A stretch of 32,904 nucleotides of DNA from Candidatus Alkanophaga volatiphilum (GTDB lineage: Archaea > Halobacteriota > Syntropharchaeia > Alkanophagales > B39-G2). The stretch lies in the NCBI GenBank assembly GCA_029259545.1, contig JAPHEE010000021.1, positions 1-32,904 of the forward strand, read 5' to 3'. A program made the translations under genes and the position numbers. The notes beneath the pieces were generated by a model. That model made no database searches, was not told the DNA's origin, and saw only the letters and a program-made list of their open reading frames with translations. Shown piece after piece: positions 15,820-23,859 of the stretch (the first letter of the stretch is position 1; each line of letters opens with the position of its first letter).

Positions 15820-15886
15820 TGTAGCTTGTTGAGGGAGATAGTTAGGAGCGAACGCACGCAGCACATTAATAATCACGCTCACTTAC

Positions 15887-16068
15887 AAAATGTCGCTAAG
15901 AAAGCCCTAAGGGATGAATTGGGGAGGCGGGTGGGGAAATTTATACTTTGAAGCCGATTTTATCGAGACGGGGCTGGGGCTGGCTCCGGTCAGGCTGCGT
16001 GAGCCGCCCTGAACACGCCGTGAAGCTCGGCTCCGAGCGGGGCTATAAGGCGGAGTGGAGAGGCTCAC
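15887..16068 (+). mobile_element. Short non-autonomous IS200/IS605-like element, copy 1 (182 bp)
   Basis: Flanked on the left by TTAC (15883-15886), starts AAAATGTCGCTAAGAAAGCCC (identical to copy 2), ends GAAG-hairpin-AGGC-TCAC (16065-16068); excision restores an ORF. Confidence 0.8.
15938..15946 (+). promoter_or_regulatory. TATA box-like element inside mobile element copy 1
   Basis: AATTTATAC followed by GC-rich sequence without a convincing CDS. Confidence 0.4.
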
Positions 16069-21864: not shown

Positions 21865-22602
21865 TCAGAGCCGCTTGGGTAGCGCCCTTTTGTGCAGTTT
21901 CGTTGCGATGAGCAGGAAGAGGGCGGTGCATGCGAACAACACCAGAAAATCCAAGTAAACCGGATAGAAGGCGTAGCCCTGAATCGAGAGCCTTGCCAAG
22001 TCCGTGAAATACGTCAGAGGGGATAAGGAAGCTACGACGACGCCCCAGTGCGGCAGATTCTCCACGGGAATGAATATTCCGCTGATGAAGACGATGGGGA
22101 ACTTCACGAGCGTGGAGAGCATCATGACGTTCGACGGCAGGTTCGTGGGGTATGCGGAGAAGAGCAAACCGAAGCAGGAGAAGCAGAGGGCGCCGAGGAG
22201 CGTGGCGACCGTCAGAATGACGGGCTTCTTCACGCCGACGCCCGCAAAAACGCCAACAACGACCGGGACTGCGGAGAGGCAGACGCAAAATATGAATGAG
22301 GCTAGGACATCTCCCAGAATCATCATCTCCACCGAGATGGGGCACGACAAGAGCCTTTCGAGCGTTTTCGTCTGCCCCTCCCAAGGGGCGATTACTGGGG
22401 GGACGGAGGTGGCTGTGAAGAACAGCGTCATCGACAGCAATCCCGGGATGAGAAACGACGCGGGCAGCTCCCTGCCGACGTAAAATGCGAGAAACAGAAA
22501 AACTGGGAACAAAACGCCGAAGATCACCACGGGTCCCTTGGAATAATACATGAGTATGTCCTTTTCAGTTATCGCCCAGACTTTGCTCCAGAACTTACTC
22601 AC
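21865..22602 (-). CDS. ABC-2 type transporter permease
   Basis: VWAITEKDILMYYSKGPVVIFGVLFPVFLFLAFYVG...TPHWGVVVASLSPLTYFTDLAR; GTG start overlaps ATPase stop. Confidence 0.88.
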   Translation of the reverse strand: MSKFWSKVWAITEKDILMYYSKGPVVIFGVLFPVFLFLAFYVGRELPASFLIPGLLSMTLFFTATSVPPVIAPWEGQTKTLERLLSCPISVEMMILGDVLASFIFCVCLSAVPVVVGVFAGVGVKKPVILTVATLLGALCFSCFGLLFSAYPTNLPSNVMMLSTLVKFPIVFISGIFIPVENLPHWGVVVASLSPLTYFTDLARLSIQGYAFYPVYLDFLVLFACTALFLLIATKLHKRALPKRL

Positions 22603-22887
22603 TCGAACCCCCAGTCAATCGCACGAACACGTCCTCCAAAGGCGGGGAGCAGACGGTCAAACTTGTTATCTCCAGTCCTTTCTGCTTTGCGAAGTCGACG
22701 ATTGCGCATATTACGGTATGGGGCTTTGTCGTGTAAATCTTAAGGCTTTTCCGGCACGTTCAACATCCAGCTCCGACAGGTTCGAAGTCTTGAGTTCCGC
22801 CTCGCCGGGAAGTTTGTCGAAACTCACTTCCACGACGAGAGTGCCTCCTATTCTCCGCCTCAAGTTCTCAGGCGTGTCAACCGTTAC

Positions 22888-23135
22888 AAAATGTCGCTAA
22901 GAAAGCCCCTCGTTTCAACGAGGGGATGAATTAGGGGAAGGGGGTGGTCGGCGGCGCTATATTTTTATACGTGGAGGGTTTCAAGTACATGCTGGAACGA
23001 GCCGTGGGCTACATGCTCGCGGTAGGGGCCGCCGTGACCCGGCCCGAAGGGGAGCGGCTTGCCCTCTGGCAAACCACACTCCCCAACCTCCCCAGCTTCC
23101 CGGTGGGAAGCCCCCTAGTCGGGGGAGGAGGTCAC
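22888..23135 (+). mobile_element. Short non-autonomous IS200/IS605-like element, copy 2 (248 bp)
   Basis: Left flank TTAC (22884-22887); AAAATGTCGCTAAG-AAAG-CCCCTCGTTTCAACGAGGGG hairpin; right end GAAG-CCCCCTAGTCGGGGG-AGGAGG-TCAC (23132-23135); excision restores ABC ATPase frame. Confidence 0.87.
22958..22969 (+). promoter_or_regulatory. TATA box-like element inside mobile element copy 2
   Basis: TATATTTTTATA upstream of a GC-rich ~160 nt segment ending at the right-end hairpin. Confidence 0.45.
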
Positions 23136-23859
23136 AATCCTACCCCTGTTTATTATTCCAATGCGGTCACAGAGCATATCCACCTCCTGCATGTTATGGG
23201 AGGTGAGAAAAACCGTTTTCCCCTCCTTCTGAAGCTCCAAAATCTTCTGTCTTATCATTCTGGCGCTCTGCACGTCCAAGCCGCTCGTCGGCTCGTCCAG
23301 GAAGAGGATTTCGGGATCGCTCACGAGAGCGATGCAAAGCATTAACCTCTGCTTCATACCCTTGGAGAAGGTTTTAACCTTGCTCTTCCGCCGCTCGTAG
23401 ATTCCAAACTCTTTGAGGAGGGCTTTTGCTCTCCGCTCCGCCTCCTTTCGTGGAACGCCGTGAAGAGAGGCGGCGAGCATGACGTTCCTCCAAGCGGAGA
23501 GGTCCGGATACGGGTTTGCGACCTCCGGCAGCACGCCTATCCGCTCCTTTACCCTCAGAGGCTCTTCCACGTCCACGACATCGTAGCCCAACACCGTCGC
23601 CCTTCCCGCATCCGGCTTGATGATGCCGGTGAGCATCCTCACGGTTGTCGTCTTTCCTGCGCCGTTGGGACCGAGGAAGCCGAAAATCTCGCCACGACGC
23701 ACGTCGAACGAGATGCGGTCAACCGCTCGAAGCCCCCCGAAGCTCTTGCTCAAATCCTCGACGACGATGGCTTCCATCCCAGCCCTCCGGTAAGCGGAGT
23801 GGCGTGAAGTGGGCTTTGCGGGCTTCCACGTTTCCATGTTGGCTGCTTGGCGGGAGTTA

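Follow-up and report, generated by a model that had tools for sequence, protein, structure and literature searches.

A transposase-free IS200/IS605-type element of Candidatus Alkanophaga volatiphilum with a predicted TnpB guide RNA

An ABC-transporter ATPase gene of Candidatus Alkanophaga volatiphilum is interrupted by a 248 bp element that is probably a minimal transposon with a guide RNA of its own, relying in trans on TnpA for movement and on TnpB for retention. The element occupies positions 22888-23135 of the window (by which we mean the whole stretch analysed, 32,904 nucleotides of contig JAPHEE010000021.1), and is confirmed as a transposase-free element of the IS200/IS605 type (a PATE). 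Judged by its fold and covariation, the right 140 bp encodes a structured guide RNA of the TnpB type (omegaRNA), for which TnpB binding and guided cleavage are predicted. This omegaRNA content is the main part that a preliminary description of the element had overlooked, and with it the element amounts to more than a pair of transposon ends.

An insertion in an ABC-transporter ATPase gene

The element lies immediately 3' of TTAC (22884-22887) and ends in TCAC, with no target duplication; the sequence reads exactly as the preliminary description had it. The interrupted ATPase gene adjoins an ABC-2 permease gene. Virtual excision of the 248 bp joins ...INRGRIV to TVDTPENLRRRIGG in the ATPase frame, and about 40 orthologous loci in Methanophagales (ANME-1), Archaeoglobales and Methanosarcinales are uninterrupted across the junction, with the insert absent from all of those compared. 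These loci supply the empty-site homologues that the preliminary description had proposed as a check. At G028 the two ATPase flanks are about 9 bp apart, versus about 257 bp at the interrupted locus; the ATPase region was not found in the same-genus genome G001, which has copies of the element itself, leaving no same-genus empty site for comparison. The best orthologues place the genome of this uncultured archaeon near ANME-1, a group of methane oxidisers, and with one other genome it appears to make up a small family within that order. The proposal that excision restores the ATPase frame stands at the junction itself, where the frame rejoins in agreement with the orthologues, but not along the whole gene, as the rejoined frame stops after residue 292 (...LRFTRQSPIP*) where relatives continue. 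The stop results from an apparent one-base frameshift near 22740 (minus strand), downstream of the insertion, which points either to further damage in the gene or to a mistake in the assembly. The features of the locus are as follows.

22600-23837, minus strand: host ABC-transporter ATPase gene, interrupted (Pfam PF00005; orthologues)
22884-22887, plus strand: TTAC, target and left cleavage site (CL), probably the TAM (45 of 58 minimal copies share its spacing from the left-end core)
22888-23135, plus strand: whole tnpB-less IS200/IS605-type element (uninterrupted orthologues; full-length and partial genome copies)
22893-22905, plus strand: left-end core GTCGCTAAG with left guide AAAG at 22902-22905 (64 exact genome motif matches; guide counts)
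22906-22925, plus strand: left-end hairpin CCCCTCGT-TTCA-ACGAGGGG (DNA fold)
22962-22969, plus strand: TTTTTATA box, 26 nt before the start of the omegaRNA model, proposed promoter (box counts in copies)
22980-23120, plus strand: former 3' coding end of tnpB (FKYMLERAVGYMLAVGAAVTRPEG...), which no longer codes (comparison of intact TnpB C-termini)
22996-23135, plus strand: predicted omegaRNA scaffold gene (covariation; covariance model R1, 134.4 bits, E 1e-30, this copy being itself among the 24 training rows)
23024-23144, plus strand: match to Rfam HgcC (RF00062) at 34.8 bits and E 1.1e-6, below the gathering score of 50
23107-23125, plus strand: right guide GAAG (23107-23110) and right-end hairpin CCCCC-TAGTC-GGGGG (23111-23125) (sequence, fold, guide counts)
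23132-23135, plus strand: TCAC, right cleavage site and scaffold end (terminal in 88 of 107 aligned copies)
23136-23155, plus strand: right flank, predicted guide segment of the RNA (flanks vary among copies; analogy with the ISDra2 reRNA, PMC8612924)
15887-16068, plus strand: second, decayed copy of 182 bp, TTAC (15883-15886) followed by AAAATGTCGCTAAGAAAG...GGCTCAC (motif and pattern search)

DNA folding places subterminal hairpins at both the left and right ends, and the exact IS200/IS605-type ends of the preliminary description (TTAC, guides, hairpins and TCAC) are all present. No transposase gene lies within 22888-23135, where only the tnpB 3' remnant was found, and the element is non-autonomous, as had been proposed. 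For TTAC combined with the left-end pattern, chance would provide 0.09 matches in the window, and two perfect ones are observed. The decayed copy at 15887-16068 gave no match to the R1 model at E<=10.

Copies of the element and the guide code of their ends

A DNA search with the element gave 48 full-length and partial matches in the genome, and the R1 covariance model of the right-end RNA gave 96 at E <= 0.01. The model also matched 32 times in the one same-genus genome, six and four times in two further genomes, and hardly at all elsewhere in the order. Allowing one mismatch, the left-end motif GTYGCTAAGAANGC matches the genome 91 times (64 times exactly), compared with two for a backwards control. 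When ends are paired, 58 left-right distances fall between 142 and 260 bp, which we refer to as minimal copies, and a few of about 1.2 kb correspond to tnpB-bearing copies; the 58 minimal copies used below for box, covariation, tree and guide counts include a few from related genomes. TTAC stands at a fixed offset before the left core (5 nt, or 4 nt in two cases) in 45 of the minimal copies, TCAC ends 88 of the 107 aligned right ends, and the flanks beyond this constant TCAC differ from copy to copy. Exact ends are common to dozens of copies at unrelated sites, and the search for further copies with the same ends that the preliminary description had suggested is answered amply by the left-end matches and minimal pairs. 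Decay is evident in many copies, among them the one at 15887-16068. No match was found in the plasmid collection searched.

Copies are often clustered or adjacent, for example at C40:47-272 and 787-1030 and at C18:1161-1306 and 1322-1475, and close-lying copies also occur at L006, L003, L137 and G000:C3:49500-52800. The exact TTAC-N5-left-end pattern is present in three IMG/VR contigs (L242, L243 and L244). The left-end motif is also located near TnpB genes that have no R1-type RNA (G000:C6:61628, C6:64751 and C11:28149), and one left end may be common to several TnpB subfamilies.

In IS608, the left guide AAAG reads TTAC and the right guide GAAT reads TCAA, with guide bases 1 and 2 pairing with positions -3 and -4 (PMC5934647). 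The left guides counted here are AAAG (26), AAGG (18), AGGG (8), AATG (2) and three others, and the right guides are GAAG (50), GATG (16), GACG (8) and GGAG (4), counts that on the right exclude ends off the pattern and on the left come from a motif search favouring AANG. The first guide base is thus invariant and the fourth almost so; the second is A or, less often, G, and the third varies freely. Base 4 of the IS608 guide pairs with position -1. From these counts the IS608 code appears to fit both ends of the family, and a free base 3 is as the code predicts. The reading of the right-end pair TCAC/GAAG as a compensatory last-position change relative to TCAA/GAAT, also made in the preliminary description, is upheld.

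A Y1 tnpA gene at C6:11362-11712 has the left end TTAC|AAAACGTCGCTACGAAAGG, which is the left-end type of the minimal family. Its product scores 143.7 bits against Y1_Tnp (Pfam), matches solved TnpA structures and has the HUH and tyrosine motifs; within this tnpA-tnpB element the TnpA frame is uninterrupted and the element's own tnpB is split into two frames. The element (L208, G000:C6:10000-12300) combines a left TTAC/AAAG with a right GAAT-hairpin-TCAA, the exact IS608 code, and is the sole tnpA element with a matching left end, although its TCAA/GAAT right end differs from that of the minimal family. The preliminary description had suggested looking for a Y1 tnpA with TTAC/TCAC ends, and the C6 element answers to this in its TTAC and left-end type, but not in its right end. 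We consider this TnpA a candidate for mobilising the minimal copies in trans. The tnpA genes on C28 and C29 are less likely helpers, as their left ends are of another type (TTTAAC before GTTGCTGCTAAG), and the stretches on C30 and C17 have no matching left end.

A predicted omegaRNA and its TATA-like box

Pairing in the right-end RNA was counted on a hand-set structure of seven helices, as the RNAalifold consensus mixed the GUGACC/GGUCAC end pairing with the stems. In 24 copies, 94.0% of the cells are paired and 20 of the 41 pairs have changes on both sides, giving 111 double-change cells versus 36.5 after shuffling (none of 500 shuffles was as high), whereas slid versions of the same structure are only 38-57% paired. 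With tnpB-less copies alone, 92.7% of cells are paired and there are 188 double-change cells versus 54 shuffled (maximum 67), and 41 minimal copies from outside the model building gave 132 versus 38; these double-change counts ignore relatedness, and the alignment is fitted to the model. A possible pseudoknot, GUGACC/GGUCAC, is almost invariant and therefore beyond the reach of covariation. In the tnpB-bearing copies, the homologous segment comes immediately after the zinc-finger domain of TnpB and partly coincides with the 3' end of tnpB, and the reRNA of ISDra2 is likewise made from the tnpB 3' end and the right end (PMC8612924).

Counting as a box any octamer with at least six of eight positions matching TTTTTATA, we find a TATA-like box in 47 of the 58 minimal copies, where it precedes the RNA start by 10-26 nt (by 20-26 nt in 40 of them), versus none of the 20 tnpB-bearing copies within 60 nt of the RNA start. 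The stretch between box and RNA varies: in the window copy and L140 it is about 14-17 nt of tnpB, and in others it is less or another sequence. As these stretches differ, more than one deletion set a promoter at archaeal spacing. We propose that the octamer is the promoter of the solo omegaRNA, from which transcription would start, although the box might in part be no more than a leftover from the left end.

A P1 stem of the type GGGTA..CC is found in 35 of the 58 minimal copies and in none of the 20 tnpB-bearing ones, and on a tree of the RNA the minimal copies cluster (19 changes versus 35.6 in shuffled data, 0/500 as low), the tree being poorly resolved with 60 of 104 inner branches under 80. 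The confinement of this P1 type together with the clustering indicates that minimal copies also descend from minimal copies, and the RNA fold is kept among copies of such minimal-only descent.

These patterns bear on the simplest alternative, that the element is an ordinary PATE or deletion derivative in which the DNA ends alone serve mobility and the omegaRNA and TATA box are passive relics. We regard this as unlikely but worth serious consideration, since PATEs retaining the tnpB 3' end and the right end are known (PMC3119063, PMC7290912) and many copies here have decayed. However, helices P1-P5, which TnpA does not need, pair with compensatory changes in tnpB-less copies, including those of the minimal-only lineage, and the TATA-to-RNA spacing is narrow despite differing junctions.

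Movement and retention in trans, and relation to known systems

Our preferred reading, a minimal transposon with its own guide RNA, can be set out as a series of steps. The minimal element would have arisen by deletion of the middle of a tnpB-bearing IS200/IS605 element; what remained would be the left end, TATA box included, and a right end carrying the complete omegaRNA. A Y1 TnpA acting in trans, with that of C6 as a candidate, would cut 3' of TTAC and 3' of TCAC, directed by the guides AAAG and GAAG beside the hairpins, and would move the single strand by peel-and-paste. The retained promoter would transcribe the omegaRNA with a guide taken from the right flank, and TnpB from tnpB-bearing relatives would load the solo RNA and cut the empty TTAC|flank site after excision. 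Repair of the cut donor site would then restore the copy, as in the published homing model (PMC8612924).

The genome also encodes TnpBs of this family in unbroken frames of about 360 aa. They have IAIG[ND]L in place of ..EDL, and because the canonical RuvC-II glutamate is missing their nuclease activity is not certain. A glutamate before TSxxC (VPE/VNE..TSxxC) accompanies the change, both features being seen in L004, L009, L021, L022, L025, L027, L054, L176, L196, L200 and others, and four canonical TnpBs of the genome (L112, L033, L126 and L118) have the opposite pattern. From their sequences the in-family proteins resemble the RII-r clades; RuvC-II rearranged clades are known, and RII-r5 includes an active nuclease (PMC10278001). 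The altered RuvC-II motif could also be taken to suggest that the solo RNAs were co-opted as a regulator of host or element, as in TldR systems, with targets beyond the empty donor site, and T. kodakarensis expresses HgcC RNAs that have no neighbouring transposase gene (PMC4247193). We consider such a role improbable, because the alternative glutamate accompanies the motif change, the RII-r5 class includes an active nuclease, and the high copy number, varied right flanks and TTAC beside nearly all copies suit a mobile family. The assembly is fragmented (89 contigs), but the notion of an immobile sequence, either a conserved gene part or an assembly artefact, is ruled out by the uninterrupted orthologues and by the genome copies with their exact ends.

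Transposase-free elements of this general kind are already known. The PATEs of Haloquadratum walsbyi (PMC3119063) likewise lack a transposase and a target duplication, have subterminal palindromes and IS605-related ends, and reach high copy number as here, and a PATE-like element of Halanaerobium, 271 nt in length, includes the right end together with the final 58 nt of tnpB (PMC7290912). In the parts of the two reports consulted, the retained segment is not treated as a guide RNA, and neither covariation nor a fused promoter appears. The new points here are the minimal-only lineage, the link to HgcC, and a quantitative argument that the retained segment is a guide RNA under selection and preceded by a promoter of its own. 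The element shares with IS608 of Helicobacter pylori the TTAC kept on the left, the left guide AAAG, hairpin ends and a right guide of the form GA-N-N, and differs from it in having TCAC/GAAG rather than TCAA/GAAT, no tnpA or tnpB, an archaeal host and a variable guide base 3. The predicted omegaRNA is similar to the ISDra2 reRNA (PMC8612924) in its length of about 140-150 nt, its composition from the tnpB 3' end and right end, its flank-derived guide and its neighbouring target motif, but the reRNA comes with tnpB, whereas the RNA gene here stands alone behind a TATA-like box.

Cas12 descends from TnpB nucleases. If such a nuclease can use guides from elements that do not encode it, the benefit would be shared among elements, and omegaRNA-only copies would be expected to spread as parasites of parasites. 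Dozens of solo guides occur naturally in this genome and their target sites (TTAC plus flank) are known, which opens trans action of TnpB to direct testing.

The only Rfam match to the window RNA is a full-length one to HgcC (RF00062), and while the window copy does not reach the gathering cut-off of 50 bits, a family copy on C27 does, with 51.4. The likeness includes the same 3' GGAGGAGGTCA, and the P1 stem of the window RNA is outside the HgcC model. In T. kodakarensis, HgcC RNAs are expressed and either begin within transposase genes or lie away from them (PMC4247193). Among HgcC-like loci of other archaea, a strict motif placed TnpB directly upstream of some only and a looser motif added cases; the strongest loci (L212 and L213) have no TnpB and have TTTTTATT-like boxes instead. 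HgcC is therefore likely to be a TnpB omegaRNA family, which would give this archaeal RNA family a likely function as TnpB guide RNA; a partial literature search found neither a published HgcC function nor an HgcC-omegaRNA link. A broader proposal, on which we are evenly divided, is that guide-RNA-only transposons form a self-propagating lineage that borrows TnpA and TnpB and whose promoter-driven omegaRNA is under selection, with the expressed solo archaeal HgcC RNAs being of the same kind. An RNA of HgcC type with a TnpB C-terminus directly upstream is located at L239, and solo HgcC-type RNAs with a CCGAAACATTTTTATT promoter-like box are located at L212, L213 and L215.
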